Shown here one piece after another: positions 5,213 through 49,035 of a stretch of DNA of 64,000 nt. The notes beneath the pieces were generated by a model. That model was not told the DNA's origin and made no database searches. It worked only from the letters and a program-made list of their open reading frames with translations. The stretch lies in contig NZ_CP113949.1 in NCBI RefSeq assembly GCF_026810445.1, forward strand, positions 930,001 through 994,000. Direction: 5' to 3'. This DNA is from Pseudomonas sp. BSw22131. Its GTDB lineage: Bacteria; Pseudomonadota; Gammaproteobacteria; Pseudomonadales; Pseudomonadaceae. How positions within the stretch are numbered: the first letter of the stretch is position 1; each line of letters begins with the position of its first letter. A program made the position numbers and the translations under genes.

Positions 5213-5229
5213 TGGCGTCAAATTTTACT
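5213..5229 (+). promoter_or_regulatory. TGGCGTCAA box, copy 1 (curli)
   Basis: TGGCGTCAAATTTTACT lies about 95-110 bases upstream of the csgE start. The first 12 bases are identical to the box at 48983 upstream of lapA. The GTCAA-plus-A/T part resembles one half of published FleQ boxes, which is an inference only. Confidence 0.5.
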
Positions 5230-5281
5230 TAGAGTGGCGATTTTAAATAGCGGGCTAACAGTCGTTTCGTTAACGGGAATA

Positions 5282-5299
5282 TGGCGTCAATTTTTAATT
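5282..5299 (+). promoter_or_regulatory. TGGCGTCAA box, copy 2 (curli)
   Basis: TGGCGTCAATTTTTAATT is a direct repeat of the 5213 box, 69 bases away in the same orientation. A degenerate TGGCGATTTTAAA also lies between them at 5235. Confidence 0.5.
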
Positions 5300-5820
5300 T
5301 ATATAGTGGGTTGTCTGTTTTCCGGCAGAGAAAGGATTCTTTTTTGACAGGTTGCTGGTTGGCTGGAGGTCAAGTGGTTAGTGGGCTGCATCGTTCGATG
5401 GCGTCGGTTGTCCAGCGTCAAATACTGTTGATCATTCAAGCGAGGGTAAAGCGATCTCGCATGGGTGCCAGTGTGGGGATGATCAAGTCTTGCGCGTTAG
5501 CGATGCACTTGGGACTGCGTTTTTGAGGAGGGTAAGTGTCCGGTGGTTCTGAGCGTTAGCGTTCGGAGATTGGTGTTTTTAAATGAAGTTAGTTGCGCGA
5601 AAAGATAGGCGCTCTGTGGGCAAGGTATGAGTGTATTGCGGTGCGTATTAGTGACAGGGTCGCTCTAAGTCGCAGGTCTTGCCTTTTTTAATCGTTAATG
5701 CCTGCGTGCACAAAGAGACTTTAGTTGCTGCCGCTACGCTGTTGGACGCAGCCCTGGCACATCGCGAGTACGCTCACGCCTAAAGCCTTCGGACAGAATC
5801 AACACCAACCCGCCCTTCGT

Positions 5821-6939
5821 TTATCGGGGGAGCTGGCCGGAATCAGGAGCCCTGACTCCGGGCAGCAGGAGCCGGGCGATGACAGGCAGGTGATCAGAGA
5901 TCAACAGGGTGTCGTCCTGACGTACCCGAGCTGTCAGGCGCTTCATCGCTGGGCTGTAAAAAAGGTAATCGACCGTGCGGTCCGGGCCGCTCACGCGTGG
6001 GTCGTTGGGGAATCGGGTGAACCATTTACGCCGATCCTCGCCGGCCGCGTCGTCGTTGCTCGGGACCATCGGGTAACGGTCCCACAGCGCCTGCAGTTCA
6101 CTGACAGGCGCGAATTCACCGCGTAATTCAGGCGCCAAACGGTGGTATTGATCCTTTGCCAGCAAACTGAAATCCCCCCCGAGAATCCAGGGCGCCTGTG
6201 CATGTTCGAATTCGTCGAGCAGGCCTCTCATCACATCAAGCTGCCGCGTTGCGGTACGGTCGCCGGGGTGTGAGTCCCCGAGATGAGTGTTCACTATCGC
6301 CAAGTGCTTGCCATCGGTCATGGGCAGATAACCCACCAGCAACGCGGGTCGGGGGGCGAACTGTCGGCTGATGAAATTGCCAGCGGGTGAGGGCAGTTGC
6401 AGGCGTTCGGCTCTGTCGATCACGTAGCGGCTGATGATTGCGAGCTTGGTGCCGACGCTGCCGAAGATGTGCGGGTTGGGGATGAAGTCTGACTTCCAGT
6501 AAAACGCTTCGGTGCTGCACGGGTACAGGTCCGTCACGCGCGCCTGAAGCAAGGCGAGCTGGTTGACGTAATCGGTATTTTTGGCGCCGTCGTCCACTTC
6601 CTGCAACAGCACGACGTCGGGCTGCTCGTCACGAATGACTCGCGCCACCTCGTCCAGGTTGTAGGCCACATCCTCAGGTGTCGGGCGCTCGTCCGGGCCG
6701 CTGCCGTCGGCCATGTCGTACCAGAATACATAGCGTTTGCCCGCCAGATACTGGATGTTCCAGGTCATGACCTTGAGCGTCTGCCCTGGCGCCAGTTGTG
6801 GCGCGGCTGCGTCCTTGGCGTTGCAACTCACCGGCATGCGCTCGTGCTCGGCAGGGTGCCAGGTGACGTCGTAGACAAGCCCTGCGCAGAACGCCGCCAG
6901 CAGCGTGGCAATCAGCACATATCGTGTTAATCGAGGCAT
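5821..6939 (-). CDS. Endonuclease/exonuclease/phosphatase (EEP) family protein, membrane-anchored or exported
   Basis: The EEP fold is shown by ordered motifs: VMTWNIQ (first Asn), LLQEVD (metal-binding Glu), NTHLGD, GGDFS, DRTVDYLF and the catalytic ISDHLPV near the C-terminus. Members cleave phosphodiesters in nucleic acids or lipids. An N-terminal hydrophobic segment (residues 5-25) suggests export or anchoring, so the substrate is probably extracytoplasmic. The usual GGDFN has Ser instead of Asn, which may affect activity. The ATG at 6939 is chosen. A GTG 15 bases upstream is possible. Substrate is unknown and neighbours give no clue. Confidence 0.8.
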   Translation of the reverse strand: MPRLTRYVLIATLLAAFCAGLVYDVTWHPAEHERMPVSCNAKDAAAPQLAPGQTLKVMTWNIQYLAGKRYVFWYDMADGSGPDERPTPEDVAYNLDEVARVIRDEQPDVVLLQEVDDGAKNTDYVNQLALLQARVTDLYPCSTEAFYWKSDFIPNPHIFGSVGTKLAIISRYVIDRAERLQLPSPAGNFISRQFAPRPALLVGYLPMTDGKHLAIVNTHLGDSHPGDRTATRQLDVMRGLLDEFEHAQAPWILGGDFSLLAKDQYHRLAPELRGEFAPVSELQALWDRYPMVPSNDDAAGEDRRKWFTRFPNDPRVSGPDRTVDYLFYSPAMKRLTARVRQDDTLLISDHLPVIARLLLPGVRAPDSGQLPR

Positions 6940-7005
6940 CGTTCTGGCTGGCACCTCAGTTGATCAATGGGAGAGCGTTGCGCTAGCAGCAGGCTGTAGC
7001 TTCAG

Positions 7006-7668
7006 TCAGACAGGCTTGGTTTGCTCGTCGATCAACATGAACATCCGAAACATCACCACGCTGATAAACAGCTGCAGGAAACTCGAAGTACTGTCCACCG
7101 CAAGCGACAGCGCAAAGCTTTGCTGCTCAGGCAAAACGTAGTAACTGATGCCCTCCAGCACCGACAACGGCAGGTAAACGAACAGCACGCAGGTCAGGAT
7201 GCGCAGCATGTGGCCACGGGTCATCATGAAGCTCGCCCGCATGGCGGCCAACGGCCTCAAGCCGCGCAACACCAGCAGATATTCCGAAAACACCAGTTTG
7301 ATCATCACCCAGATGCCGGGGAGGATGAACAGCGACAGACCGCCCATGATCAGCAATGTGCTGAGCGCCGACAGCACCGCAAACGTCGGCCACAACCGCA
7401 ACGCGGCGGCCAGCAGATTGCGTTTGGATGGCTCGTCACCACCGCTCCTTGCGTCGAGAAACAGGATCAGCGCCCCGGTGTACAGCGGGTAGAACAGCAG
7501 CCCGATCAGCAACTCATACGTCGCGGTCGCATTCGGATCAAGCGTACTGCTGAGCAATTGTTTGGATAACGCCTCAAGCACCACCAGTGGCAGGCACAGC
7601 GTCAGGATGCTGGCGAGGTTGCGCCGGAAAAAATAAAGGGAATCTCGGAGAATCGTCAGCGGGTTCAT
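7006..7668 (-). CDS. YciC family inner-membrane protein
   Basis: This is a 220-residue polytopic membrane protein with about five to six hydrophobic segments. It begins MNPLTILRDSLYFFRRNL and ends in a membrane segment around FRMFMLIDEQ, typical of the YciC (UPF0259) family. The function is not established for the family, and no catalytic motif is seen. It stands alone between the EEP protein and the divergent DUF2076 gene. Confidence 0.75.
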   Translation of the reverse strand: MNPLTILRDSLYFFRRNLASILTLCLPLVVLEALSKQLLSSTLDPNATATYELLIGLLFYPLYTGALILFLDARSGGDEPSKRNLLAAALRLWPTFAVLSALSTLLIMGGLSLFILPGIWVMIKLVFSEYLLVLRGLRPLAAMRASFMMTRGHMLRILTCVLFVYLPLSVLEGISYYVLPEQQSFALSLAVDSTSSFLQLFISVVMFRMFMLIDEQTKPV

Positions 7669-7867
7669 TGCGACATCACAGGCTGAAAGCAGGCCGCCAC
7701 TTTAACGCAGTGCCAGCGCGCGGGCTAATGGGATGCGCTGTGCCGGGCCCGGCCCGGTTAACTTTTTTTACATCCTATTGAAACGCCCCGGAACAGCCCC
7801 ATTACCTTGCCTGTATCCGACCATTTGGTCTGACAACGAATTCCAACGGCAATCTAACGAGGTCGCC

Positions 7868-8692
7868 ATGAACAGCGAAGAGCAAACCCTGATCGACGAC
7901 TTGTTTGTAAAACTCAAGCAAGCAGAAAAGGATTCGGCCATACGAGACGCCCAGGCCGAAGCGCGGATCAAGGAACACCTCGGCGAGCAGCCAGGCGCCC
8001 CTTATTACATGGCGCAAGCTATCATCGTGCAGGAAGTGGCCATCAAGCAGCTCGAGGCCCAGAGTCGCCAGCGCGATGAACAGATCCAGCAGTTGCAGAC
8101 CGAGCTTCAGCGCGCCAAGGCGCAGGCGCCCGCAACGGCTCAGAGCGGCGGTTTCCTGTCGAGCATCTTTGGTGGTGGCGCCCGGGAGCCACAGGCTCAG
8201 CAGCCTTCTTCGTTTTCCCAACAGCGTCCGTCCAATCCGCAGCCTTCTTCGGGCGGCTGGCGGGACTCGGGGCCCGCTAGCCCACCGCCTTACAACAGCG
8301 CCGCGCCGCAAGGTAATTACGCGCAGCCGCAGCAGCCGCCGCAGCAACAAGCACCTGCCTCGCCAATGGGCAGCGGCTTTTTGGGCGGTGCATTGAAAAC
8401 AGCGGCAGGCGTGGCCGGCGGTGTGATGCTGGCGCAAGGCATCAGCAGCCTGTTTCATCAAAACAGCCAGCCGCAGGAGATTGTCGAAGTCATCAAAGAG
8501 GAGCCGGCGCAAAACGTCAGCGACACTTTCAGCCAGGACTCAGGCAGCACCGGTGGCTGGAACGATGATCAGCAGAACGTCACCAGCAATGACAACTGGG
8601 GCGGGAACAACGATGCAGGTGGCTTTGCCGATACCGACTATGGTAACGACGATGGCGGCGGCATGTTCGACGACGATGATTCGTTCGTCTGA
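7868..8692 (+). CDS. DUF2076 domain protein
   Basis: The N-terminal 80 residues contain the DUF2076 signature: a short helix with LIDDLFVKLKQAE, a GAPYYMAQAIIVQE block and a coiled coil. A Pro/Gln/Ser-rich linker follows (about 100-175), then a Gly-rich hydrophobic segment around GGALKTAAGVAGGVMLAQG, and an Asp/Asn/Gly-rich acidic tail ending DDDDSFV. The function is unknown; the segment around 190-210 may associate with membrane. ATG 7868 is used because DUF2076 begins there. The frame is open further upstream, but no better start or homology is seen. Confidence 0.82.
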   Translation: MNSEEQTLIDDLFVKLKQAEKDSAIRDAQAEARIKEHLGEQPGAPYYMAQAIIVQEVAIKQLEAQSRQRDEQIQQLQTELQRAKAQAPATAQSGGFLSSIFGGGAREPQAQQPSSFSQQRPSNPQPSSGGWRDSGPASPPPYNSAAPQGNYAQPQQPPQQQAPASPMGSGFLGGALKTAAGVAGGVMLAQGISSLFHQNSQPQEIVEVIKEEPAQNVSDTFSQDSGSTGGWNDDQQNVTSNDNWGGNNDAGGFADTDYGNDDGGGMFDDDDSFV

Positions 8693-8820
8693 TACATCGT
8701 CACGAATCCACCCCGTTATGACGCCTCGCGAATGAATTCCTGTGCACAGGAGATGTGCACTGGTCAGCGAAGCTTCGCGGGCAAGCCTCGCTCAACAAGC
8801 TTCGCGCTGAACGCAAATCC

Positions 8821-9362
8821 CTGTAGGAGCCAACTTGTTGGCGAGGCGGCCGTGCGGATTGAATCAATCCCAACGCCACGCGAATGAATTCGCGTCTACA
8901 GATCAAGCGCCCATCCAGAAGCGCTTCCGGTTCTGTAGGAGCCAACTTGTTGGCGAGGCGGCCGTGCGGATTGAATCAATCCCAACGCCACGCGAATGAA
9001 TTCGCGTCTACAGATCAAGCGCCCATTCAGAAGCGCTTCCGGTTCTGTAGGAGCCAACTTGTTGGCGAGTCGGTTTCGGATAAAGGTTGAATCAGTCCCG
9101 ACGCCACGCGAATGAATTCGCGTCTACAGATCAAGCGCCCATTCAGAAGCGCTTCCGGTTCTGCAGGAGCCAACTTGTTGGCGAGGCGGTTTCGAATAAA
9201 GGTTGAACCAGTCCCGACGCCACGCGAATGAATTCGCTCCTACAGATCAAGCGCCCATTCAGAAGCGCCTCGGTTCTGTAGGAGCCAACTTGTTGGCGAG
9301 GCGGTTTCGGATAAAGATTGAATCAGTCCCGACGCCACGCGAATGAATTCGCGTCTACAGCC
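8821..9362. repeat. Five-copy BIME/REP array, 112-116 bp period
   Basis: GTAGGAGCCAACTTGTTGG starts at 8823, 8935, 9047, 9163 (GCAGGAG variant) and 9278, giving periods of 112, 112, 116 and 115. Each unit also holds the inverted partner ACGCGAATGAATTCGCGTCTACAG and a linker with CAAGCGCCCAT. Units one and two are nearly identical, so this is recent tandem amplification. The array fills most of the 8693-9512 gap, and no gene is seen in it. Confidence 0.9.
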
Positions 9363-9512
9363 CGCGGTGTCAGCCGCGCGTCACCGGGTTCTCAACGCGC
9401 TAATTCGGTCTTCCTTCCCACGCCACTCTTCAATCACTTCCTCAAACTGGCATACTGAGCGCCGGCTCGCCTTTCGGGCCGTTGTCGCTCGTTAGCGCAT
9501 CGAGGATTTCCG

Positions 9513-9992
9513 GTGAAAAGAATTGCGGTGTTCGCCGACGTACAAAACCTCTATTACACCGTGCGTCAGGCTCATGGCTGCCACTTCAACTATGCCGCTC
9601 TGTGGGCTGATATCAGCCAGCGCGGGCAGATTGTCGAAGCCTATGCCTATGCCATCGACCGTGGCGACAGCAAGCAGCAACAGTTCCAGCAGATCCTGCG
9701 CAACCTGGGTTTCGTCGTCAAACTCAAGCCGTACATTCAACGCAGCGATGGCTCGGCCAAAGGCGACTGGGACGTGGGCATCACCATCGACATCATGGAC
9801 GTCGCGCCCAACGTGGATGAAGTCGTGCTGGCCTCGGGTGATGGCGATTTTGATTTGCTACTCGAGCGCATCATCAGCAAGCACGGCGTTGAAGCAGTGG
9901 CGTATGGCGTGCCCGGGCTCACTGCCAACTCGCTGATCCGCGCGGCCAGCCGATATGTGCCGATTGAAGGCGGGTTGTTGCTCAAGAATTAG
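9513..9992 (+). CDS. NYN-domain (LabA/DUF88) putative RNase
   Basis: The 159-residue protein has the PIN-like NYN fold. An N-terminal FADVQNLYYT holds the first acidic residue. KGDWDVGITIDIM and LASGDGDFDLLLERI supply the remaining conserved Asp residues that would bind metal, followed by GVEAVAYGVPG. Related proteins are predicted nucleases acting on RNA. It starts at GTG 9513 with GAGGA nine bases upstream. It is monocistronic, flanked on both sides by REP elements. Confidence 0.83.
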   Translation: MKRIAVFADVQNLYYTVRQAHGCHFNYAALWADISQRGQIVEAYAYAIDRGDSKQQQFQQILRNLGFVVKLKPYIQRSDGSAKGDWDVGITIDIMDVAPNVDEVVLASGDGDFDLLLERIISKHGVEAVAYGVPGLTANSLIRAASRYVPIEGGLLLKN

Positions 9993-10006
9993 AGCCGCAC
10001 TCCACT

Positions 10007-10085
10007 GTAGGAGCGAACTTGTTCGCGAGGCGGCGTTCCTGACACAACACTGTGACCGCTTCGCCAACAAATTGGCTCCTACAGG
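10007..10085. repeat. REP-like inverted pair
   Basis: GTAGGAGCGAACTTGTTCGCGAGG is followed by CTTCGCCAACAAATTGGCTCCTACAG in opposite orientation, between the NYN gene and the exonuclease gene. It resembles the units of the 8.8-9.4 kb array. Confidence 0.75.
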
Positions 10086-10128
10086 GCGAGCCGTACATTC
10101 AAGACCATCGCTAAAGGCCATTAAAACC

Positions 10129-10743: not shown

Positions 10744-10771
10744 CACCGGGCTGCGCCGTCCGCTGTGCGCC

Positions 10772-11921: not shown

Positions 11922-11969
11922 ACTGCCGGCCATTGCAAAACGTGCTGACACTTTTCCTACGGTATCCCC

Positions 11970-33335: not shown

Positions 33336-33554
33336 GAAAGGCGGGCTACGATGAGTGGGGCAGAATCATACTAAGACGTTTCAGTCGCTAGCTTATATAA
33401 GGGAGTGTTGAGCAGGCGCGATCACCAGTGTCGACCGCTGATTGTTGAGCGTACGGAGCTGCTCCATCGTCTCGACCACCCCGCCATTGTCTTTCCCCCT
33501 ACAACCCGTCACCATCGCTTTTTTGCCACCTGCTTGCATATCGGGTCAAACGAA

Positions 33555-34250
33555 TTGGCAGTACGTTCAGCTCATGGACGGCCTGGGCTTTGGCTGCTGC
33601 TTGCGCTCGTGTTGTTTTGCGGCGCAGGGGCGGGCTATCTCAATGCCGACTGGGATTTCTCTGTTATCAGTCGGCGCGCCGAAGCGTTGTACGGGCCTTT
33701 GGGCGCTGGAAAGCAGCGCATCGATGCCTGGCAGAATCTGCTCGCCACGCAAAAGCAGACGCCCGAGCTTGAACAGCTGAACGTGGTCAACCGGTTCTTC
33801 AACAAGCAGATGCGTTACGAAGAAGACATCGACCTGTGGCACGAGGTCGACTACTGGGCCACGCCCATTCAGTCGCTGATGAAAGGTGCGGGGGATTGCG
33901 AGGATTACGCCATCGCCAAGTATTTCAGCCTGAGGCGATTGGGCGTCCCCAGCGAAAAACTCTTGATCACCTACGTCAAAGCCCTGCGCCTGAACCGAGC
34001 GCACATGGTGCTGACCTATTACCCAAGCCCCAACGCCATGCCGTTGGTGCTCGACAGCCTGATTGACGTGATCAAGCCTGCGAACGAACGTCCCGACCTG
34101 TTGCCTGTTTATGCCTTTAATGGCGAGGGACTTTTTTTGCCGGGCGCGCAGGGCAACAAGAAGGTGGGCGACACCAAGCGTCTGTCCCGTTGGCAGGATC
34201 TGCTGAAGAAAATGACCGCTGAAGGCTTCCCGGCCGAGCCTGAGTACTAG
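33555..34250 (+). CDS. lapG: Periplasmic cysteine protease LapG
   Basis: LapG cleaves the N-terminus of LapA and releases the adhesin from the surface when c-di-GMP is low. After an N-terminal signal/anchor segment (WLLLALVLF), ADWDFSVISRRAEALYGPLG matches the family. The bacterial transglutaminase-like Cys-His-Asp triad is visible in GAGDCEDYA, NRAHMVL and LVLDSL. TTG 33555 gives a normal length (231 aa) and signal peptide. The frame is open 50 codons further upstream without family resemblance. lapD follows after eight bases, as in other Pseudomonas. Confidence 0.93.
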   Translation: MAVRSAHGRPGLWLLLALVLFCGAGAGYLNADWDFSVISRRAEALYGPLGAGKQRIDAWQNLLATQKQTPELEQLNVVNRFFNKQMRYEEDIDLWHEVDYWATPIQSLMKGAGDCEDYAIAKYFSLRRLGVPSEKLLITYVKALRLNRAHMVLTYYPSPNAMPLVLDSLIDVIKPANERPDLLPVYAFNGEGLFLPGAQGNKKVGDTKRLSRWQDLLKKMTAEGFPAEPEY

Positions 34251-36427: not shown

Positions 36428-37642
36428 TCAGCTGAGCATCCGTATCGAGCTTGTTGCATCGCAGGCCATTTCCAGTTCGGCGCCGTTTAGCCTCTCACCG
36501 TAATGGTCTTTCAATTCCATCTCCCAGCCTGCGACCTCTTCGAGAATTTCCTCTGCTGCATTCTGAGACAGTGCGAAATGGCTATGGTGGCTGATCATGT
36601 TGGATCGGCTGATTCTGCGTCCCTCCTGGCCAACCGACATGATCAACGTTTGTGCGGGCCCCTCGCCAAGTACGGGCAAAACGTCATACATAGGGGACAG
36701 ACGCCACTGACCACTGACCCAGATGACCGCATGGTTTTTTGGGTGGTCGTCGGAGTTGCCCACCAAGGCGTTGTAGCACATGCGTTTGAACAGCTCCTGC
36801 AGGTCCACGTCCGGCACGCCACGACGACGCATCTCATCAGCGACACCTGCGTAGAGCCAGTCCCGGTGATATGAGTCATTCCATTCCGAATTCAGTAGCG
36901 TCAAGGCGCTGAGCATCGGTATGCGTCTGGCACCTTGCGCAATGGCGGTACGATCAAATCGCTCGACCAGTAGTGTGGACGGACGCTCTGCATGCAAAGC
37001 TGTTTTGGCCACATTCAGCCCCTTCGAGGCGGCAAAGGTCATGCACGCGTATTCGACAGGGGGCAGGGCATAGTCATCAAACCGGTCCTGTGGTTTGGCG
37101 AGGATCAACATGCCGTTATCCTGCAGCGTTCTTTTGGGGCGCGCGCCGCCGAGTGCGGACCGCTGCTGGCGAATCTTGAGACTGGTGGCTGAGTCGCTAT
37201 CGAGTTGGCCGTCGTATACCGCTTCGCAAGCCTCAACGAATTTGGCTAGTCCTTTCAACGTCGGGACGTTAGCGTGGCCAATGCCAGGCGGGGACGTAGA
37301 CGTAGTTCCCGCCATAAGATTGCCGATGCGGTCGCTGTTTGGGGATTTGAGCAAGTAGTCAATCGGTCCCAGGTCCTGACCATATGAGCGATGGAGGAGA
37401 CGCTCCCCCCAGCCATCGGGCATGGCGTCATTGATGAAACCGGGTATCCCGCGGTTTTTGCTGATGCCTGTATAGGGTTCGTTACGTAACGGATAATTGA
37501 TCGAATCCGGTACCCAGCCTCCACGCTTTACGTAATCAGGAGCGTAGATGAACTCACCGGTTTTCCCTATCAATGTCAGTCTGCCGAGAGTCAGAACCTC
37601 ACCGGTTTCGGGATGCTCCATATAGATGTAGGCACGCTGCAT
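36428..37642 (-). CDS. hipA: HipA-type serine/threonine kinase toxin
   Basis: The 404-residue length is that of HipA toxins. An N-terminal HipA domain (YMEHPETGEVLTLGRL) and a C-terminal kinase-like domain are present. The latter has LVERFDR, the catalytic NALVGNSDDHPKNHAVIW and the metal-site YDVLP. HipA kinases phosphorylate translation targets such as glutamyl-tRNA synthetase and induce dormancy. The target here is unknown. The ATG overlaps the antitoxin stop by one base (TGATG). The frame is open 47 codons further upstream, but that part is a shadow of hipB. Confidence 0.87.
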   Translation of the reverse strand: MQRAYIYMEHPETGEVLTLGRLTLIGKTGEFIYAPDYVKRGGWVPDSINYPLRNEPYTGISKNRGIPGFINDAMPDGWGERLLHRSYGQDLGPIDYLLKSPNSDRIGNLMAGTTSTSPPGIGHANVPTLKGLAKFVEACEAVYDGQLDSDSATSLKIRQQRSALGGARPKRTLQDNGMLILAKPQDRFDDYALPPVEYACMTFAASKGLNVAKTALHAERPSTLLVERFDRTAIAQGARRIPMLSALTLLNSEWNDSYHRDWLYAGVADEMRRRGVPDVDLQELFKRMCYNALVGNSDDHPKNHAVIWVSGQWRLSPMYDVLPVLGEGPAQTLIMSVGQEGRRISRSNMISHHSHFALSQNAAEEILEEVAGWEMELKDHYGERLNGAELEMACDATSSIRMLS

Positions 37643-37974
37643 CAGAAGTCCTCCGGTCTGGGCTTGGTCAGCCGCACTCGCCTTGACGCAATGGTGTCGC
37701 GCTTGTTCTCGAGGGTAGTTGCTGGGGTCAGCTCTATGCTGTCGAGAGAGGCGAAGATCGCTTCGGTAAGACCAAGCCGCCACAGCACCAGTAGGAACGA
37801 CCTCAGGTCTACCGCTTCAGAACCGCTTTCGATTTTACGCAGAGTATGTGTAGAGACACCCAGTGACGCCTTGAGATCGGCCTGGCGCAATCCCAGTACG
37901 AGACGCTTCGCTTTTACCAGAAGGCCAATCTTGCGCAGTGCGTCTGCGCAAATGACCGGAAAATAACTATCCAT
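37642..37974 (-). CDS. hipB: HipB-type antitoxin, XRE helix-turn-helix protein
   Basis: This 110-residue protein has a Cro/C1-type HTH (LRQADLKASLGVSTHTLRKIESG, about residues 30-52), followed by a C-terminal tail ending RLTKPRPEDF. The position directly before hipA with a one-base overlap marks it as the antitoxin and autorepressor. ATG 37974 (MDSYFPV) is preferred. An ATG at 38022 would add 16 residues and run through the candidate operator. Confidence 0.83.
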   Translation of the reverse strand: MDSYFPVICADALRKIGLLVKAKRLVLGLRQADLKASLGVSTHTLRKIESGSEAVDLRSFLLVLWRLGLTEAIFASLDSIELTPATTLENKRDTIASRRVRLTKPRPEDF

Positions 37975-38956: not shown

Positions 38957-41900
38957 TCAGGAGTGATGATCGACCTTGATGGTTGGATCAGTACCGCCGA
39001 CCAGCGACTTGATCATGTCGTTGCTCCAGGTCACGCCTTCCAGCTTGATGTGAACATCGGCTTTAGCGACGTCCGCAGCTGAGTTGAACTGGCCCGTTGT
39101 GCTGACTTCCACCGTGGTGTTTTTACCGTCGTTGGTGATCTGCAGGAACTTGGAGATGGCGTCGGAGTTGCCGTCTTCACCTTGCAGCAGATCGCTCAGG
39201 TCCAGCTTGTCACCGCCCTTGCTCACCGGCGTGTCCTTGAAGTCCTTGACCACGTCGGTGCCGACGTCGCCTTGCTTCCAGACAAACGTGTTGCTGCCAG
39301 CGCCACCGATGAGGATGTCGTTGCCTTTGCCCCCGATCAATATGTCGTTGCCGCCCTGGCCGAACAGGATGTCGTTGCCATTGCCCCCGATCAACGTGTC
39401 GTTACCGCCGTTGGAGCCAGCCGTCGTCGAGTTGTTGGACAGCGCGATGACATCGGTCAGATGCTCGGTGATGTACTGATGCAGCGCCTGGTTGTCGGCA
39501 ATCGTCACCCCTTTGCTCTCGGCAAAAGCCTTGAGTGCAGTGGTGCCTTCCTGGCCACCGAAGTTGATCACGTCGCCAAACAGGATGTCATTGCCATCGC
39601 CGCCCACGAGCATGTCATTGCCTGGCGCAACCGCCGTCTTGGATCCCAATACCGCAGCGGCCAGATCATCGACACTGACGTTGGCCAGCGATTTGCCGCT
39701 GGTGTCGTAGTGATCGAGGACGGTGGTGTTGGTGCCGCTGCCGATACCGATGGCTTCGACGCCGTTGTTGGACAACTTGCTCAGCAGCGCAAAACCGGTA
39801 TCGGCTTCGGCCATCGCTTTGTCCAGGCTGTCCTGGGCGACGGTGAAGCTGTATTCGGTGCCGCCTTTGCCGTCGTCATGCGCCGACAGTTTGCCAATGT
39901 CGGTCTTGGTCAGGGTCGATCCCGAACCTTTGTAGGCGTCAACGTTGCCCGCTGTGTCGATCAACGTATAGGTTTTGCCGTACAGCGTCTGCGTGACGGT
40001 CTTGCCAACACTCCAGGTCGCCAGGGCATCGACCAGGGTAACGTTGGTCACGTTGCCGTTGGAATCCCTGTAGTTGAACAGCGTACCGTCGGTGCTCTGA
40101 AACTCGTTCGGCGCGCCGTCAGTGATGAAGTACGTGAGATTCTGCGCGCCCGGATTCGCAGCTTTGGCCTCGATGAACCAGTCAGCCGCTGTCTTGAACG
40201 CGTCCTCATAGTTAGTCCGGCCGTCAGCCTTGATGCCGTTCATCGCCTGCTCAAGTGAGTCGAGTGCCGCCTGTTTGTCCTTCAGGTCCACGGTCACCGG
40301 CACACGTGCATTGGTGTCGAAGTCCAGCAGCATCAGCGTCACCTTGCCTGCATCCGAACCGCTCGCGCTGGTGGCGAGTTTGTCGAAGACAGAAGACAGC
40401 TGCGCTTTGGCAGTGGCGAGCGTGTTGGACATGCTGCCCGAGCTGTCGAGGATGAACGCGATGTTGTAGCTCTTGCCCTGCACGATGCTGGTGCCCGAGA
40501 CGTCGCCCACCAGGATGTCATTGGCAGCGCTGCCGGTCAGCGGCGTTTGATCGCTGCCTGCATCGCCATTGCCGGTGTTGTAAACGCCCTGATCGACCGT
40601 CACTTTGATGACTTGGGTGGTGACGGCTACGTCTTTGTTCGAGTTTTCAGTGGCGGTGGCGGTAACGGTCAGGTTGAACGTGCCGTGGAAGTAGTCCGGC
40701 GTCTTGATCGTCAGCGTTGTCAGGTCCAGCCCGCGGATGTCCACCTGCGTGTTGGTGTCGCCAGTGTTCGTCACGGTGTGGCCCGCCGCATCCGTCAACA
40801 CCGAACCTTTCGGTACGCCGGAGAGGGCAGTGACGTGCGTTTCCGAATCGTTGTCGGTGTAGGCGACGTTGATCGAGCTCAGCTTGATCGGGCTGTTTTC
40901 AACACCATGGTTCAGTTCGTAGCCTTTGTAATAGCCCTCGCCACTGACGCCGTTGACTTCGTTCAGACCGGAAACACTCAGGCCGGACGCTTTCAGGTCA
41001 TCGACCGACGTGTAGAGCAGCGCGTTGCTGCTGTTGAGTGCAACGCTGGTGCCGCCCACTACCAGGTTCAGGTCGTAGCTGCCCGGCCCGCTCTGGTTGT
41101 AGTGGTAGATGTCCAGCGTGTAATAGCCGGACGCGGTCGGCGTGTAGCCGGTCGAACTCAGCGCGCCGCTCGAATGATCCCACTGCGCGGTAGCAACCGT
41201 TTTGCCGCCGATTGTGATCAGCAAGCTGTCATCGGCCTTGCCGCCAAAGCTGTACGTTTTACCGGCTTCCAGGTAGATCAGGCCGGACAGTTTGGTGCCG
41301 GTGCCCTGAACCACGTTGCTGTCGATTGCCGAACTCGCGAGGCCGTGGGTGGTGGCTGCGGTCGTGGTGTTGAAGCCAGCCTTGATGGTCGCTTCATTGG
41401 CGCCGCCACCGCCGTTGCCCATGTTGGTCAGCGTGCCGACCCACACATCCTTGACCAGACCGGTCGAGGTGATCGGGGTGGTGCCCAGCGTGATCCTCGG
41501 TACGTCAGCGACTGGCGTGATGTCGATTTTGAGCGTCGATGACGCACCGCTCAAACCACCCGCAACGGGCACGAAGCCCAGCTCTGCGTAGTCCGCGTGC
41601 ATGTTGCCGACGCCGGACGCGGTGTACGAGTTGTCGCCGGACTCATTGGCGACCGGCATGAATTTCAAGCCGCCGTCAACGATGAATTGCTTGGTGAATT
41701 CCTGACCCGCAGTGACGGCTTTCCAGGCGCTGCCGTCTTTGTATTCCAGGGTGCCGCTGGCCGGCAAGCCACTGATCTTGACGCTCATGGCAACGGTGGA
41801 GCTGGCAGGATCGGCAATGCCGAAGGTTTTCCAGGACAGCACCATCGCCGTGTCTTCTTTGACGGTTTGCGTGCCACTGTTGGCCGTGGGCAGGCTGCTG

Positions 41901-44900
41901 TCGACGAGGGTCGTCGTCACGCTGTCTGCACCGCCAATCACCAGTTGCTCGAAGTTGCCACCGGTTGCCGAAGCGACTTTGACGGTAAAGCTTTCAGCGC
42001 CTTCTACCAGCGAATCCGTCAGCGTCTGGATATTGAAGCCAAAGTCTTTGGTGCCCTTCGCAATCGTGACTTCTGCTACGCCGGTGAAGTCGCTGCCATC
42101 TTTGGCAACGCCGCTGTAGCTCAACTTCACCACCACGTCGGTCTGGCCCGGGTTGTCCAGGTGCAGGACGTAGCTTGCGCTGGCGCCTTCGATGACCGAG
42201 CCGGCCCCGGTGATTGTCACTTGGGTGGGGTCGATCACGTCGCTGACGTTGACGGTGGCCGTTGCCTTGCTCACGTCCAGGCCTTCCAGGTTGCCGTGGC
42301 CGCTGTTGTCGTTGGCGAAACCGACCACGGTGACGGTCTTGGAAGCGACGGTGTTGTAAACGTCGTTCGTGTCGCCGCTCACGCTGTACTGGGCACTGGT
42401 TTCGTTGGCCTTGATAGTGACCACGTCGCCATTGGACAGCTTGAGCGTCAGGTCGGATTTCGGTGCGTGATCGACGCTGATGGTGAACACGCCAGTGCCG
42501 CCTTCAAGCAGTTGAGTCGGCGCCTGAACCGTCACCACGGTGTCGGTGTTGACCTGAGTGATCTGCGTATTGACCGCGCTGCGGTCCGCGTTCACGTCCT
42601 CGAAATTGCCGCCGGTGTAGCTCTTGATCGCGGTCGACACCTTGCTCGCGCTGTCGGTGTAGGCGCTGTCCGGCACAGTGTAAGGCGCCGAGCCCGAGCT
42701 TTGGCCTGCGGCGATCTTGATCACCATGTTGTTTGCCAGCGTGACCGACATGTCGGTCTGCGCGGTCACCGGCGTGCCGGTTGGGCCCGTCAGTTTCACG
42801 GTGTAGGTGATGGTCTCGCCTTCAGTCGCAGTGCCCACGGTCGACAGCGCCAGCTGGGTAGTGTCTTTGCTGTCCAGGATCTGGGTGGTCTGGTCGCCTG
42901 AGGCGTAATTCACGGCCTCGAAGTTACCGCCTACCGCGCTGACAATGTGCGCACCCACCGAGGCCGCATCGATATAGATGGTGTCGTCGTGGGTGTAGAC
43001 CTTCGTGGAACCCGAGGTCGTGTTCGCCGCGATGGTGATCGTGGCGTTGTTGCTCAGGGTGATGAGCATGTCGGTTTGTGCGGCGTTCTTCAGCGTCGCG
43101 GTGTACGTGATGTAGTTGCCTTCGGTCACATTGCTTTCAGCCGTCAGCGCGATGTTGCTGCTGTTGACCACGTCGACGACCTTGGTGGTCACCGTCGCGT
43201 TGCTGTAGTCCAGGTTTTCGAAGTTGCCATCGTTGACCACGGTTTTACCGTTGACGGTGGTGGTCGTGGTGCCGGTGACGTTGACCGTCAGATCGCTCGC
43301 CTTGTAGACGTCGTTCTGCACTTTGTAGTCGACGTAACCGGTTTTGCTGTTGGCGTCGATGACAATGGTCTGACCGTTGGACAGGGTGAGCTCGGTCTTG
43401 GTCTGGGCTGCGTGATCCAGTGTGGCGGTGTAGCGAACGGTGCCGTCTTCGTTGACCGAATCCAGGTTGGCGTTCAGCGTCACGCGGGTGGTGTCGATGG
43501 TGTCGCTGATCAGCGTGCTGACTGGAGAGTTATCGACCGTCAACCCGGCAGTCACGCCAACGGTGGCTTCCTTGATTGAGTGGACGAGAGTGCCGCCATC
43601 TTTATAGACGTCATCGCCCGGGCCGGCGACGCTGACAGTGCCGCTCGACTGACCTTTGAGGATAGTGACCGTCTGGTTGTTGTCCAGCTTGACGGTGATG
43701 TCGGCGCTGGCGACAACAGGGTTTTTCGAGCTGTCCTGCAGCGCTACGGTGTACTCGATCGGGCTGCCTTCCACGCCGGTTGCAGCCGCCGAAAGCACCA
43801 GCGCTGTCACTGGCAATACGTGCACCATGAGGTTCAGGTCGCTGCTGCTCGCTGCGGCGCTGCCATCTTGCGTGGTGACGGTGAAGACCAGCGGGACATC
43901 CCCTTTAAAGCCGGTAGCTGGGGTGAACGCCAGTTTGCTGGTGTCCCAACCGGTGATGTCGAACGGTTTGCCCGCTTCTGCGGTGGTGATGGTGTGAGTG
44001 TTCACGCCATCGGTGATCACAGAACCCTGAGGCAGGCCACTGACGCTCAACTTCAGCGATGCGTTTTCCGAGCCATCGGTGTCGGTTGCAGCGGCCGCGA
44101 ACTGCGACAGCGCAATCGAGTGACCTTCAAGCCCGGTGTTGGCAGCCTGAGTGACGCTGATATTGTCCAGAATGCCGCCGAACGAGTTGCTGTCCACCCC
44201 TTTGAATTCCAGACGCGCGGAACCATCGGAGGTCACCGGCACCTGGAAGGTGTAGGTTTTCAGCCCGGTTTGCGAGGCGTTGAGCGTGCCAATCAGGACA
44301 CCACCCCACGTCACGTTGATCACTGAGTTGTCCAGTGAGCCGGCACGTGGCGAGTAGTCGACTGAAATCGTGTAAGTCGCGCCAGCCTTGGCCGGAATGT
44401 CGGTGTACAGGTTGCGGACTTCGCCTGCGTTGCTTTCCAGTTCGATGACGTGGTTGCCCGCGCTCTCTTTGGGGTCGATGACGCCGTAAGTGCTGGCTTT
44501 GCCAATTTCGACGGCGTTGTTGCGGTTGCCTGTTTGCCACAGGCCGCCGCCCAACTGATCGACAGCAATGTCTTTCCAGTTGCCCACGTTGGCGCTGCTT
44601 TCGAAGTCGATGCCACGGCTGAAGCCTTCGCCGACCAGCGCAATGCTTGGCTTGTCGGTCACGGGCGCGACGTCGATGTCGACAGTCGCGGTGCCGGTGC
44701 TGTTGGTGCCCTGATTATCGACCGCGCTGTAGGTGAAGCTGGTCTTGCCGCTCCAGTCTGCGTCGGGTTTGAAGTAGATAGTGGCGCTGTTGCCGCTCGC
44801 GGTGATCACGCTGGACGTGGTCAGCGTGTTGCCGTTTGCGTCTACGAACGTGCCGTGTTCAGGCAGGCTCGACAGGCGGAACTGGCTCACGTTGCCATCG

Positions 44901-47900
44901 ACATCGCTGCCGGTCAGCGTGATGGCAGTGCGAGGCGCGTCTTCGTCCATGACGACTGCTGAATCGCGGACCACCGGGGCGTCGTTGACCGGGTTGACGG
45001 TGATCGTGCCGTCGTGGATGGCTTTCAGATTGTTGTTGCCGTTTGCATCAGCGTCGGTGATTTCAACCTTCACGCCGCGCACGTCGGTGCTCGGATCAAC
45101 GCTGGTGTTCTGGTACTTGATCGAGTTGATCAGCGTTTCGTACTGCGCAATCGAGGCGTTGCCCGTCAGTTCAATGACCACGTTGCCGGCGCCGTCATTG
45201 CTGACGGTGTAGGTCACACCTGGAACAGCCGTGCCGGTTTCGCCACCTTTATAGTATTCGGAGACGATCAGGTCCTGGGCCTGAACACCGGTGAGGGTGA
45301 TCTTCGCGCCGCTTAACTCGGTGCTGTCGATATCGCTGATGACCAGGTCTTTGACGATAGGTGTTGCTGCACCTTTTTCGGTGTATTCGACGCTGCTGAA
45401 ATTCAGGATCGGCGCGTCGTTAGCTGGCGTCACGGTCACTGGCAGGGTTTGCGAAGTAGACGCTGTCGGGCCGGTGGCTTCGGTGGAGGTCGCCGTCACG
45501 GTCAGGTTGATCACGCCGTTGAAGTCTTTCGGCGGGGTGATGGTCAGCTTGCTCAGATCCCAGCCATTGATAATGACAGTGCCGCCAGCGCCCCCGGTGG
45601 AGGTGAAGCTGTTGACGCCGTCAGTCAACACAGCGCCCTGCGGGATGTTGCCAATCTGGGTGGTCAGACGTTCCGAACCGTCGGTGTCGACCAGCGCCGA
45701 GCTGAGTGTCAGTTGGATCGCGGTGTCTTCTGTGCCTTGTGCGGAGGTGGCCGCGACAGTCGGGGCATCGGCTACGGCGCCGACCTGAACGTCGAAGCTC
45801 AGGTCCTTGCTCACAGGCGTGGCATCGCCGTCCTGGGCCGTGGCGGTCACGGTCAACGGCACGGTACCGCTGAAGTTGCTCGGCGCGGTGAACTTGAGGT
45901 TGCTCAGGTTCCAGTCGGTGATGTCGGTCGAGGTGCTGCCAGCGCTTGCGCTGAAAGTATGAGTGCCGTCAGTCAGCGTGGAACCGACCGGGAGGCCGCT
46001 CATTTTCAGCGTCAGGGTTTCCGAGCCGTCGATGTCAGTGGCGCGGGCCTGGATTGGCGCGAGCAGGATGGCGTTGTCTTCCAGACCGCTGTTCAGGGTC
46101 TGGGTGACGCTGATGTTGTTGATCACGCCGCCGAACGAGTTGCTGTCGCCAGCCTTGAATTCCAGTTTCGCCGAGCCGTCGGAGGTGACCGGCACATTGA
46201 AGGTGTAAGTCTGCATGCCGGTCTGGCTTGCGTTCAATGTGCCGACCAGAGCGCCGCCCCAGAAAACGTTGATCAGGGAGTTGCTTTCCGCACCTTGACG
46301 CGGCGAGTAGTCGACCGAGATGGTGTAGGTGGCGCCGGCCTTGGCGTCGATGTTGGTATACAGGTTTGCCGGATCGCCTGCGTCACGCTCAAGCTCGATC
46401 ACCTTGCTGTTGCGCACGCTGCCGTCCACACCGTAGGTGCCCGGATTGCGGATTTCCAGGATGTCGCCGCTGTTATCGGTGTGCCATGCGCCGCTACCGA
46501 TGTCGCCGGCCACAGTGGTGGTCGAGCCATTGGCCGTTAGCGAGGCCACGGTAGTGTTGGCGCCCAGGGACAATTCCGGAATATCGGTAACAGGAGCAAC
46601 GACGATGCTGCCCGTGGCATTGCCGACACTGACCAGACCGCCGTTATCCACAGCGTTGTAAGTGAACTGCGTGCTGCCGCTCCAGTCCGGATCAGGCTTG
46701 AAGTAAATGGTCGCAGTGTTGCCCGAGGCCCGGATGTCGCTCAGGTTGGTCAGTTCTGTAGTGCCAGCCGCGTCGCTGTAGAACTTGCCGTGTTCAGCCA
46801 TGGTGACCAGGTTGAAGTGATCAACTGAACCATCAACGTCACCGCCTTGAAGCACGACAGCGATGGTGTTGTCTTCGTCACCGGCAGCCGAGGTGTTGCC
46901 GACGGTAGGTGCGTCGTTGACCGGAATCACGTTGACCGGCGTGTTGACCGCCACTGAATCCAGCTGACCGTCATTGACCACCACCGAAATGTCGCGCGGG
47001 AGGGTGCCTGGGTTCTCGCTGTTGTTGCCGTAGGTAACCGAATTGATCAGCGCCTGGTATTCGGCTTTGGTCGCCTCGCCCGTAAGGGTCAGGACAATTT
47101 TTCCGTCAACGACGGATGTCGTGACGTTGATGTTGGTGTTCGGGCTGCCGACAACCAGGCTGTCGCCCGTTTGCGCCCCGTTAAGGGTGACGGAGCCACC
47201 TTTCAACGTAGCGTTGTCGACGTCAGCAAGAGTGACTTTGCCGTCCAGGGATACGCCGCTCTGACCTTCAGTGAAGGAAATTGAGCCTTCGATCGCTGCT
47301 GTCGGTGCGTCGTTGACTGGAACAACGCTCACAACCGCATTGACGGGTACGGAGTTGTTCTGGCCATCGTTTACGGTGATCGTGATGTTGCGATCAATCG
47401 CGCTCGGGTCTTCGCTGCTGTTGCTGAAGGTGATCGACTTGATCACAGCTTCGTATTGCGCAGCGCTCGCGGCGCCGCTCAGTGTCACGACCAGCGCGCC
47501 ATTGACGGTAGCGGTGGTAACAGTGATTGCCGGGTTGTTACTGCCGACCACCACGCTATCGCCGGCTTGCGGGTTACCGAGACTGACGGTTGCGCCGGTC
47601 ACGGTCGGGCTGTCTACGTCGGTGATGCGCAGGTCGCCAACGATTGGCACGCCCTTGTCGCCTTCTGTGAAGGTCGTGGCGAAGTTGGCACCATTGGTGT
47701 TGTTGTCCAGATCAACCACTGGCAACGCATCGTTGTCGATGATGGTCGTGGTGACGCTACCCTGGGTCGGGCTGACAACGATTTGCTCGAAGTTGCCGCC
47801 GGTGATGGCGCCAATGGCGACGGTCAGGTTTTCAACGCCTTCGGGGATGGTGTCATTGATCGTGGCAATGTCAAAGGTCACGCTGCTGGAGTTGGCAGGC

Positions 47901-48880
47901 ACTTTGACGCTGACCACTTGGGTGTAATCGCTGCCATCCGCCGCGGTGCCACTGTAGGTCAGGTTGATGGTGACTTCAGTCTGCGCCGGGTTGCTCAACG
48001 TGATGGTATACGTCGCGCTTTGGCCTTCGACTACAGACGCGGTGCCGGTGATGCTGGCAGTCGTGGTATCGATGGTGTCGGTAATCTGCGTGACAGCGGG
48101 CGTCGGGTCAGTGGTGACCACAATGCCTGCGCCGCCGCTGGTCCCGGTGATAGTGGTGGAAATCTGGGTGGGATCGATATAAGGGGTATTACCGTTCGGA
48201 ATCTGAACGGAGACAGTTCCGGTGGTCTGACCGCCAGCGATGACGATGGTCTGGCCGTTTGAGAGAGTAACAATGAGGTCAGTCTGCGGGGCCTGGGTCA
48301 CGGTCGCGGTGTAAACCAGCGTGCCGCCGTTTTCAGTCAACGTCGGCGTTCCGGTGACCGTAAGCGTCGATTGAGTCTGTATTATGTTGTTGGTGTCATT
48401 GACACCAGCAGTTTGCAGTAGCGGGGCTTGAGCTGCGTTGGCCGGGCCTGCTGTCGGGAAGCCAATGGTCGGGGCGACCGCGCCAGCGGTTTCGCTCAAC
48501 AGCACGAAACTGTGCCCGCCGCCGGCATCACCGCCGCCTGGGGCGTTCTGGCCAGCTGCGGTTGCTTCAAGGTCTTTGGTAGGGTCAGCGCCCGCAGCGA
48601 TGGCTTGCTGCAATTCCGCAACCGACGGCGCAGCTTGCGCGGTGGCTTCCGAAAGATTGACCGTGGACGTCGGGATTTCCGAACTCCACTGGCTGTCACG
48701 GCCCATGTCGAGCTGACGGCCATCAGGCAGTTCGAGCGTGACGGCACCTGCCGGACCAGTCAGCACCTGTTCACCGGCAAACAACCGGTCCCCCTCGATC
48801 AGCACACGGCGAATCCCTTCCGGGGAGACTGCGACTACTTGGCCAACAATGCTTTTGACGATGGCAACAACACTGCTCAT
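38957..48880 (-). CDS. lapA: Giant RTX-type surface adhesin LapA
   Basis: This 3307-residue biofilm adhesin is exported by LapEBC and held in the outer membrane until LapG cuts it. The N-terminal retention module (SSVVAIVKSIVGQVVAVSPEG) precedes the LapG site TAAG at residues 107-110, the same position as in P. fluorescens LapA. Calx-beta-like and T1SS-type Ig repeats follow. Two near-identical jelly-roll-like domains lie at about 795-920 and 1435-1575. LapA-type repeats (about 1790-2230), a PA14-like domain (about 2525-2610), a vWA domain with DSSGSMS (about 2800-2960), nonapeptide RTX repeats GGxGxDxL (about 3080-3195) and a C-terminal secretion region complete it. ATG 48880 follows GGAGAG; an ATG six codons earlier is unlikely. 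Confidence 0.95.
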   Translation of the reverse strand: MSSVVAIVKSIVGQVVAVSPEGIRRVLIEGDRLFAGEQVLTGPAGAVTLELPDGRQLDMGRDSQWSSEIPTSTVNLSEATAQAAPSVAELQQAIAAGADPTKDLEATAAGQNAPGGGDAGGGHSFVLLSETAGAVAPTIGFPTAGPANAAQAPLLQTAGVNDTNNIIQTQSTLTVTGTPTLTENGGTLVYTATVTQAPQTDLIVTLSNGQTIVIAGGQTTGTVSVQIPNGNTPYIDPTQISTTITGTSGGAGIVVTTDPTPAVTQITDTIDTTTASITGTASVVEGQSATYTITLSNPAQTEVTINLTYSGTAADGSDYTQVVSVKVPANSSSVTFDIATINDTIPEGVENLTVAIGAITGGNFEQIVVSPTQGSVTTTIIDNDALPVVDLDNNTNGANFATTFTEGDKGVPIVGDLRITDVDSPTVTGATVSLGNPQAGDSVVVGSNNPAITVTTATVNGALVVTLSGAASAAQYEAVIKSITFSNSSEDPSAIDRNITITVNDGQNNSVPVNAVVSVVPVNDAPTAAIEGSISFTEGQSGVSLDGKVTLADVDNATLKGGSVTLNGAQTGDSLVVGSPNTNINVTTSVVDGKIVLTLTGEATKAEYQALINSVTYGNNSENPGTLPRDISVVVNDGQLDSVAVNTPVNVIPVNDAPTVGNTSAAGDEDNTIAVVLQGGDVDGSVDHFNLVTMAEHGKFYSDAAGTTELTNLSDIRASGNTATIYFKPDPDWSGSTQFTYNAVDNGGLVSVGNATGSIVVAPVTDIPELSLGANTTVASLTANGSTTTVAGDIGSGAWHTDNSGDILEIRNPGTYGVDGSVRNSKVIELERDAGDPANLYTNIDAKAGATYTISVDYSPRQGAESNSLINVFWGGALVGTLNASQTGMQTYTFNVPVTSDGSAKLEFKAGDSNSFGGVINNISVTQTLNSGLEDNAILLAPIQARATDIDGSETLTLKMSGLPVGSTLTDGTHTFSASAGSTSTDITDWNLSNLKFTAPSNFSGTVPLTVTATAQDGDATPVSKDLSFDVQVGAVADAPTVAATSAQGTEDTAIQLTLSSALVDTDGSERLTTQIGNIPQGAVLTDGVNSFTSTGGAGGTVIINGWDLSKLTITPPKDFNGVINLTVTATSTEATGPTASTSQTLPVTVTPANDAPILNFSSVEYTEKGAATPIVKDLVISDIDSTELSGAKITLTGVQAQDLIVSEYYKGGETGTAVPGVTYTVSNDGAGNVVIELTGNASIAQYETLINSIKYQNTSVDPSTDVRGVKVEITDADANGNNNLKAIHDGTITVNPVNDAPVVRDSAVVMDEDAPRTAITLTGSDVDGNVSQFRLSSLPEHGTFVDANGNTLTTSSVITASGNSATIYFKPDADWSGKTSFTYSAVDNQGTNSTGTATVDIDVAPVTDKPSIALVGEGFSRGIDFESSANVGNWKDIAVDQLGGGLWQTGNRNNAVEIGKASTYGVIDPKESAGNHVIELESNAGEVRNLYTDIPAKAGATYTISVDYSPRAGSLDNSVINVTWGGVLIGTLNASQTGLKTYTFQVPVTSDGSARLEFKGVDSNSFGGILDNISVTQAANTGLEGHSIALSQFAAAATDTDGSENASLKLSVSGLPQGSVITDGVNTHTITTAEAGKPFDITGWDTSKLAFTPATGFKGDVPLVFTVTTQDGSAAASSSDLNLMVHVLPVTALVLSAAATGVEGSPIEYTVALQDSSKNPVVASADITVKLDNNQTVTILKGQSSGTVSVAGPGDDVYKDGGTLVHSIKEATVGVTAGLTVDNSPVSTLISDTIDTTRVTLNANLDSVNEDGTVRYTATLDHAAQTKTELTLSNGQTIVIDANSKTGYVDYKVQNDVYKASDLTVNVTGTTTTTVNGKTVVNDGNFENLDYSNATVTTKVVDVVNSSNIALTAESNVTEGNYITYTATLKNAAQTDMLITLSNNATITIAANTTSGSTKVYTHDDTIYIDAASVGAHIVSAVGGNFEAVNYASGDQTTQILDSKDTTQLALSTVGTATEGETITYTVKLTGPTGTPVTAQTDMSVTLANNMVIKIAAGQSSGSAPYTVPDSAYTDSASKVSTAIKSYTGGNFEDVNADRSAVNTQITQVNTDTVVTVQAPTQLLEGGTGVFTISVDHAPKSDLTLKLSNGDVVTIKANETSAQYSVSGDTNDVYNTVASKTVTVVGFANDNSGHGNLEGLDVSKATATVNVSDVIDPTQVTITGAGSVIEGASASYVLHLDNPGQTDVVVKLSYSGVAKDGSDFTGVAEVTIAKGTKDFGFNIQTLTDSLVEGAESFTVKVASATGGNFEQLVIGGADSVTTTLVDSSLPTANSGTQTVKEDTAMVLSWKTFGIADPASSTVAMSVKISGLPASGTLEYKDGSAWKAVTAGQEFTKQFIVDGGLKFMPVANESGDNSYTASGVGNMHADYAELGFVPVAGGLSGASSTLKIDITPVADVPRITLGTTPITSTGLVKDVWVGTLTNMGNGGGGANEATIKAGFNTTTAATTHGLASSAIDSNVVQGTGTKLSGLIYLEAGKTYSFGGKADDSLLITIGGKTVATAQWDHSSGALSSTGYTPTASGYYTLDIYHYNQSGPGSYDLNLVVGGTSVALNSSNALLYTSVDDLKASGLSVSGLNEVNGVSGEGYYKGYELNHGVENSPIKLSSINVAYTDNDSETHVTALSGVPKGSVLTDAAGHTVTNTGDTNTQVDIRGLDLTTLTIKTPDYFHGTFNLTVTATATENSNKDVAVTTQVIKVTVDQGVYNTGNGDAGSDQTPLTGSAANDILVGDVSGTSIVQGKSYNIAFILDSSGSMSNTLATAKAQLSSVFDKLATSASGSDAGKVTLMLLDFDTNARVPVTVDLKDKQAALDSLEQAMNGIKADGRTNYEDAFKTAADWFIEAKAANPGAQNLTYFITDGAPNEFQSTDGTLFNYRDSNGNVTNVTLVDALATWSVGKTVTQTLYGKTYTLIDTAGNVDAYKGSGSTLTKTDIGKLSAHDDGKGGTEYSFTVAQDSLDKAMAEADTGFALLSKLSNNGVEAIGIGSGTNTTVLDHYDTSGKSLANVSVDDLAAAVLGSKTAVAPGNDMLVGGDGNDILFGDVINFGGQEGTTALKAFAESKGVTIADNQALHQYITEHLTDVIALSNNSTTAGSNGGNDTLIGGNGNDILFGQGGNDILIGGKGNDILIGGAGSNTFVWKQGDVGTDVVKDFKDTPVSKGGDKLDLSDLLQGEDGNSDAISKFLQITNDGKNTTVEVSTTGQFNSAADVAKADVHIKLEGVTWSNDMIKSLVGGTDPTIKVDHHS

Positions 48881-48982
48881 TAGGGGGACTCTCCGCATTT
48901 ACCGTTCAGGGGTATCCATGATGCCGACTGGCTTTTCTGTGAGCCGCTTCATACTGGAGTACGTATTTTTTACACTGTTATC

Positions 48983-48999
48983 TGGCGTCAAATTAATAA
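48983..48999 (+). promoter_or_regulatory. TGGCGTCAA box, copy 3 (lapA)
   Basis: TGGCGTCAAATTAATAA lies about 103 bases upstream of the lapA start, a distance similar to the curli box at 5213. Its first 12 bases are identical to that box. Confidence 0.5.
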
Positions 49000-49020
49000 C
49001 TGTCTGAATTAGTTAAAATT

Positions 49021-49035
49021 GTATTTTTGACGCCA
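49021..49035 (-). promoter_or_regulatory. TGGCGTCAA box, copy 4 (lapA, inverted)
   Basis: On the minus strand this reads TGGCGTCAAAAATAC. It faces copy 3 with the A/T tracts pointing inward; the pair spans 53 bases. Confidence 0.5.

Follow-up and report, generated by a model that had tools for sequence, protein, structure and literature searches.

A conserved box upstream of the curli operon and lapA in Pseudomonas as a candidate half-site for FleQ

FleQ is a c-di-GMP-responsive enhancer-binding protein that switches cells between swimming and biofilm life. Many of its targets are shared with AmrZ, a ribbon-helix-helix regulator that also binds its own promoter, and in enterobacteria the control of curli belongs to CsgD. 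The FleQ box of P. aeruginosa has the consensus GTCaNTAAAtTGAC (Baraquet and Harwood 2016, cited after PMC6120874 and PMC8125075). The pel and wss promoters are described as carrying several spaced FleQ boxes, with repression turning into activation in the presence of c-di-GMP (PMC6478803, PMC10083355). FleQ ChIP peaks were reported at lapA and amrZ in both F113 and KT2440; flhA, on which FleQ is described to act from downstream of the promoter, is named among the peaks with the published motif. At lapA of KT2440, FleQ sites were predicted at -101..-114 and -140..-153. The FleQ footprints given for P. putida include TATTTGGCGTCATAG, CAAAGTGACAATATTTTGTCGCCAA, and TGAGTCAATAAACTGGCGCTG, and DNase I footprints in KT2440 are given at PP_0788, lapE, and PP_0681, the first of which contains TTGGC (PMC8125075). 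The authors of the footprint study saw no common motif, and in the ChIP study one section is headed to the effect that a FleQ consensus is still to be determined (PMC6120874). A c-di-GMP-linked control of curli is mentioned in PMC9279365.

The window analyzed here is a stretch of 64,000 nucleotides from the genome of Pseudomonas sp. BSw22131 (5.74 Mb, one contig). It contains a curli operon on the minus strand, in which csgE is followed by csgF, the gene for a curlin-repeat protein of 335 aa, csgG, and the gene for a csgB-like subunit, and, farther on, the giant adhesin gene lapA with its divergent secretion genes. Within the csg region, no csgD-like gene was recognized. The features of both regions are as follows:

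1716..2225, minus strand: csgB/csgA-like curlin subunit (Pfam and NCBIfam)
2209..3111, minus strand: csgG (Pfam CsgG, 1.3e-70)
3165..4172, minus strand: curlin-repeat protein, 335 aa (Pfam Curlin_rpt, 3.4e-24)
4236..4679, minus strand: csgF (Pfam CsgF, 4.7e-30)
4676..5119, minus strand: csgE, at the head of the curli operon (Pfam CsgE, 1.3e-22; ATG at 5119)
5152..5157, minus strand: putative csg -10 hexamer TATAAC, by eye in a five-locus alignment, exact in 2/5
5174-5179, minus strand: poor -35-like element TGGCAA, 16-bp spacer to the -10; TGGC in 5/5 aligned loci, by eye
5213..5224, plus strand: csg proximal box TGGCGTCAAATT, 94 nt before the csgE ATG, predicted FleQ-type strong half-site
5282..5293, plus strand: csg distal box TGGCGTCAATTT, 69 bp beyond the proximal box, same orientation
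5412..5423, plus strand: weak third csg-upstream match CCAGCGTCAAAT, rank 13 of 127,978 by the amrZ and flhA matrix (see below)
38957..48880, minus strand: lapA, giant adhesin; the ORF reaches 48898, and the MSSVVAIV start (48880) is taken as likely
48983..48994, plus strand: lapA proximal box TGGCGTCAAATT, 103 nt upstream of the probable lapA start
49024..49035, minus strand: lapA distal box TGGCGTCAAAAA, oriented toward the proximal box
49077..49090, minus strand: canonical FleQ palindrome GTCAATAGTTTGAC, 12/14 match, absent from the sequence-only reading
49281..50633, plus strand: TolC-like outer-membrane protein (lapE-like), divergent from lapA (Pfam OEP, 8e-53)
50699..54218, plus strand: type I secretion ATPase and HlyD-like adaptor (lapB, lapC; NCBIfam TIGR03375, TIGR01843)

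A HipA-like gene (36428-37783) and a gene for a LapG-like cysteine protease (Peptidase_C93, 33405-34250) are located close to lapA.

The sequence-only reading of this DNA had proposed that one box lies upstream of both systems, twice at each, with the nearest copy about 100 bases before the start codon. All four words were found where it had placed them, namely at 5213 and 5282 on the plus strand, at 48983 on the plus strand, and at 49024-49035 on the minus strand. Their arrangement was also as described, with a csg pair in the same orientation 69 bp apart and a lapA pair convergent over 53 bp, and the nearest boxes lie 94 nt from csgE and 103 nt from the likely start of lapA. In each of the four boxes the GTCAA half-site is present with an A/T tract. 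The pattern TGGCGTCAAWWW has five matches in the 64-kb window against 0.07 expected, and none of 100 shuffles reached five; the fifth match, absent from the earlier reading, is located at 60794 within a TRAP DctP-family gene. A putative weak csg promoter, read by eye at 5152-5179, would place the near box about 70 bp before the start of transcription.

The distribution of the word was determined over the whole genome, with coding status assigned from ORFs of at least 100 aa, so that short genes could escape. The exact word TGGCGTCAAWW occurs 17 times (5 times for the reversed word), 10 times in ORFs and 7 times in non-coding DNA, and with one mismatch it occurs at 174 places (111 for the reversed word). 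The non-coding occurrences fall at csg (2), at lapA (2), upstream of an exopolysaccharide cluster, in the amrZ promoter, and at position 1160103. The last is outside ORFs of at least 100 aa and precedes a gene cluster of unclear kind, with no recognized biofilm gene near it. The word is not restricted to biofilm genes, but of the 7 non-coding places 6 belong to genes related to biofilm. Among the 17 sites there are two pairs closer than 100 bp, those at csg and lapA, where 0.0047 such pairs would be expected (P about 1e-5); this value is post hoc because the word was picked from those very pairs.

Upstream of the exopolysaccharide cluster (~826550-826880), after a GH5 cellulase gene, there are four box-like words, one exact and three with at most one mismatch. 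The genes of this cluster code for a beta-barrel, a Wza-like, and two Wzz/kinase proteins according to Pfam; GDP-mannose dehydratase-like and fucose synthase-like genes were recognized by eye. These boxes were dropped as conserved sites, since a non-coding box is absent from all five relatives whose first gene is 40-43% identical. Of 57 further hits, three at known csg or amrZ places were left out; the 39 coding and 21 non-coding entries include duplicates from overlapping loci. Non-coding boxes were noted in three relatives (G087, G085, G115) near a gene for RcpC of the Flp/Tad pilus, a chemoreceptor-like gene (by eye), and a gene for an HD-domain protein.

The conservation at csg was assessed by comparing CsgE of the window with the named genomes, which gave 24 loci (23 Pseudomonas, 1 Cupriavidus); with the window added and Cupriavidus kept apart, the set comprises 24 Pseudomonas loci, in which the identity of CsgE to that of the window goes down to 66%. 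The box was found with at most one mismatch at -110..-90 in all 24 loci of this csg type, although the interval was chosen after the positions were known and several of the loci are close relatives, so that they do not count as independent. In 40 rounds of the shuffle control the mean was 0.05 loci and the maximum 1. The near box is read in the direction marked '<' in 14 loci and on the other strand ('>') in 7, and in the remaining 3 it is read on both strands, forming the palindromes TTGACGTCAA or TTGGCGCCAA; such use of both orientations at one position is expected for a dimeric site. A second box is present at -166 to -175 in 12 of the 24 loci. In a five-locus alignment, the pairwise identity was 36% for the background, 82% for the distal box, and 60% for the proximal box, and 0.6% and 7.5% of 9-bp windows were as conserved as the distal and the proximal box, respectively, one locus being misaligned or gapped at the latter.

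No box was found at the Cupriavidus csg locus, which represents one genome with an uncertain csgE start. A search of this genome gave no FleQ-domain match, and two Pseudomonas genomes searched alongside did match. Its csgE, on a contig of Cupriavidus numazuensis, is 69% identical to that of the window, which suggests transfer between classes. In the other curli lineage of Pseudomonas, with CsgE 30-39% identical where aligned, the box was absent from 33/33 loci scanned over their whole length of ~3 kb, a control weakened by the possibility that another gene precedes csgE there.

For lapA, amrZ, and flhA, the sets consisted of the best 30 matching loci each, with 10 further loci chosen as distant for amrZ and flhA, and are not random. 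The counts for the core were made on the best CGTCAAW match picked in each short stretch, which favors the core. Counted in this way, GTCAA is present in 30/30 lapA loci, mostly near -107; at the spacing of the palindrome, 26 of these loci keep G12 and 25 keep C14. TTGGC precedes the core in just 5/30, and among seven distant lapA loci only 3 have the box with at most one mismatch. At amrZ, TGGCGTCA is found at -141 to -151 in 26 of the 30 close loci, and all 30 are within one mismatch of GGCGTCAA. GGCGTCAAW with at most one mismatch is present in 10/10 distant amrZ loci, for which a 160-bp stretch was scanned; 99 of 1000 control windows of 80 bp also hold it. In most amrZ loci the box runs on as GTCAAWTCTGTGAC, a sequence similar to the FleQ palindrome, and over all 40 loci C14 is kept in 35. 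Most amrZ and lapA loci retain, at FleQ spacing, the second half of the FleQ site, TG[AT]C. In the flhA leader, CGTCAA is present in 40/40 loci and GC precedes GTCAAA in 39/40, at -62 to -76; in the 13 leaders read by eye, the core comes just after a -24/-12-like element. Within the flagellar region of the own genome, the flhA leader alone has a non-coding box with at most one mismatch, the other flagellar promoters having none. The FleQ palindrome gave no non-coding match with three or fewer mismatches in that region, where one strand of the slightly asymmetric consensus was scanned.

The palindrome GTCaNTAAAtTGAC was also compared with the boxes. At lapA it matches at 12/14 positions (49077-49090), at 11/14 in the proximal box read on the other strand (48987-49000, GTTATTAATTTGAC), and at 10/14 at 49032-49045, so that none is exact. 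At the csg boxes, the best match to the full 14 bp is 9/14, with one good half-site only. By eye, the KT2440 site at -101..-114 corresponds to the proximal lapA box of the window and that at -140..-153 to the palindrome at 49077-49090. A matrix built from the amrZ and flhA sites ranked the four boxes of the window 1-4 among 127,978 positions, and 487 of 500 column-shuffled matrices put no box in the top 20. With amrZ alone, the csg boxes rank 1 and 3 and the lapA boxes 4 and 12; with flhA alone, the ranks are 8 and 83 at csg (the distal box being 83rd) and 9 and 1 at lapA. The test is partly circular because it was this word that had led to amrZ and flhA, and it indicates fit, not independence.

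The same elements as in the window boxes are held by the KT2440 footprints TTTGGCGTCATA, TTGGCGACAAAATATTG (reverse strand), and GTCAATAAACTGGCG, although none of the footprinted genes is csg. Other footprints listed in PMC8125075, AACGGCGCTGG and two at PP_5586, are without the core. The sequence-only reading had left the outer TGGC outside the FleQ box. It can belong to FleQ sites, since TTTGGCGTCATA is contained in a published footprint; the PP_0788 footprint and the 34/40 amrZ loci with TTGGC before the core largely settle this doubt, and at lapA the count is low (5/30). Upstream of MapA-type adhesin genes, TTGGCGACAA words were seen in 6/16 loci and CGCCAA-N5/6-TGAC in 10/16, eight of the loci having been chosen through such a word. 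These words resemble two of the P. putida FleQ footprints, TTGGCGACAAAATATTG and GTCAATAAACTGGCG. In a genus search with a published wss primer, several matches were located near MapA-type adhesin genes.

The genome has an intact fleQ gene (491 aa) with the Pfam domains FleQ, Sigma54_activat, and HTH_8, i.e., the N-terminal domain, AAA+, and a Fis-type HTH. In another Pseudomonas genome (G080) the match to the FleQ N-terminal domain is split in two and the box-like sequences are kept. It was tried as a natural experiment and rejected: its amrZ variant TTGGCGCCAATT is also found in 4/30 genomes with a whole FleQ match, so this genome says nothing on FleQ.

Conservation at both promoters supports the proposal of a shared regulator, and probably one regulator controls the curli and lapA systems. 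FleQ, which had been named as its candidate, gains from the presence of the same core at the orthologues of amrZ and flhA, known FleQ targets, and from the likeness to published footprints and predicted lapA sites. We consider it likely, on the basis of sequence comparison, that the box is the strong half-site of a FleQ binding element through which FleQ co-regulates csg and lapA.

A site for AmrZ, which would read the GCC in TTGACGCCA, is an unlikely alternative. The P. aeruginosa consensus of AmrZ is described as GCC between A/T-rich stretches, and AmrZ binds the amrZ promoter (PMC3946381). All four boxes of the window have GCC within A/T-rich flanks, as does amrZ, which itself has a very conserved box; lapA and algD belong to both regulons in F113. 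At amrZ, TTGGC is about as well kept as GTCAA (33/40). At lapA and flhA, GTCAA is kept better than GGC: at sites chosen by CGTCAAW, and thus biased, GGC directly precedes GTCAA in 9/30 lapA loci and is absent in 21/30, against 30/30 for GTCAA, and at flhA it is found in 30/40 against 40/40. The conserved second FleQ half also argues against AmrZ, as does the protection of TATTTGGCGTCATAG by purified FleQ (PMC8125075).

The csg box could instead be read by some other enhancer-binding protein whose helix-turn-helix resembles that of FleQ, such as one of the BrfA type, or by an unknown factor. The genome has six FleQ-domain matches, fleQ counted, and BrfA, a c-di-GMP-sensing protein of this class, was reported to control the Fap amyloid in P. 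fluorescens PF07. The core is, however, common to flhA and amrZ, which are FleQ targets, and we regard such a reader as quite improbable. Binding of a nucleoid protein, Fis or some other, to the A/T-rich regions, with the word as an incidental feature, is very hard to accept: two Fis sites overlap predicted FleQ sites at lapA of KT2440, but they were given a redundant impact, if any (PMC5612765), and the conserved letters form a word that includes G and C and keeps its distance in 24/24 csg loci, not a loose A/T pattern. Chance recurrence of GGCGTCAA, a word frequent in Pseudomonas coding DNA as the 10/17 coding occurrences illustrate, is scarcely credible, being contradicted by the conservation at csg and, post hoc, by the two close pairs.

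If FleQ is the reader, the box (T)TGGCGTCAAW followed by an A/T tract would be the strong half of a predicted FleQ site. Three elements, one canonical palindrome and two boxes, would then serve lapA about 100-210 bp before its start, and csg would be served by two direct boxes with a spacing of 69 bp, of which the nearer lies at about -100. FleQ, probably with FleN, may bridge or bend the DNA between the spaced sites, a looping that we infer. At low c-di-GMP, FleQ would hold both promoters low, and at high c-di-GMP it would activate them; the sign is inferred. By analogy with pel and wss, curli and LapA, and probably the exopolysaccharide, would rise together while the flagellar genes fall.

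A broader reading, for and against which we find the case evenly balanced, is that in much of Pseudomonas the main contact of FleQ is not the published palindrome. It would be the asymmetric half-site TTGGCGTCAAW, alone or in spaced pairs and on either strand, and a csg operon without its own csgD would be under direct control of c-di-GMP and FleQ together with LapA and AmrZ. If true, such a half-site would account for the fact that no consensus emerged from the ChIP and footprint studies. FleQ sites as such are already known; the extended half-site is a proposal, checkable on published data. The word, conserved and constant in position at csg, lapA, amrZ, and flhA, provides a testable extended FleQ site, and it would put curli into the motility-to-biofilm switch of Pseudomonas. 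Among the papers listed in a literature survey, none connected FleQ with a csg operon of Pseudomonas, which is weak evidence of absence; judged by titles, the exact word was not tied to this kind of site, and a text search found no paper pairing FleQ with the published palindrome.

Compared with the FleQ box of P. aeruginosa, the window boxes share the GTCAA half and the A/T tract, and lapA and amrZ also have the second half at 14-bp spacing. In contrast, the csg boxes are without a good second half, and the TGGC before GTCAA is outside the quoted consensus. As at pel and wss, two or three spaced elements stand upstream of a matrix operon at csg and lapA, but the products here are an amyloid and an adhesin instead of polysaccharides. 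A c-di-GMP link would be shared with the CsgD-curli system of enterobacteria; unlike in that system, no csgD-like gene was recognized in the csg region of the window, and the core found here is common to flagellar and adhesin genes.
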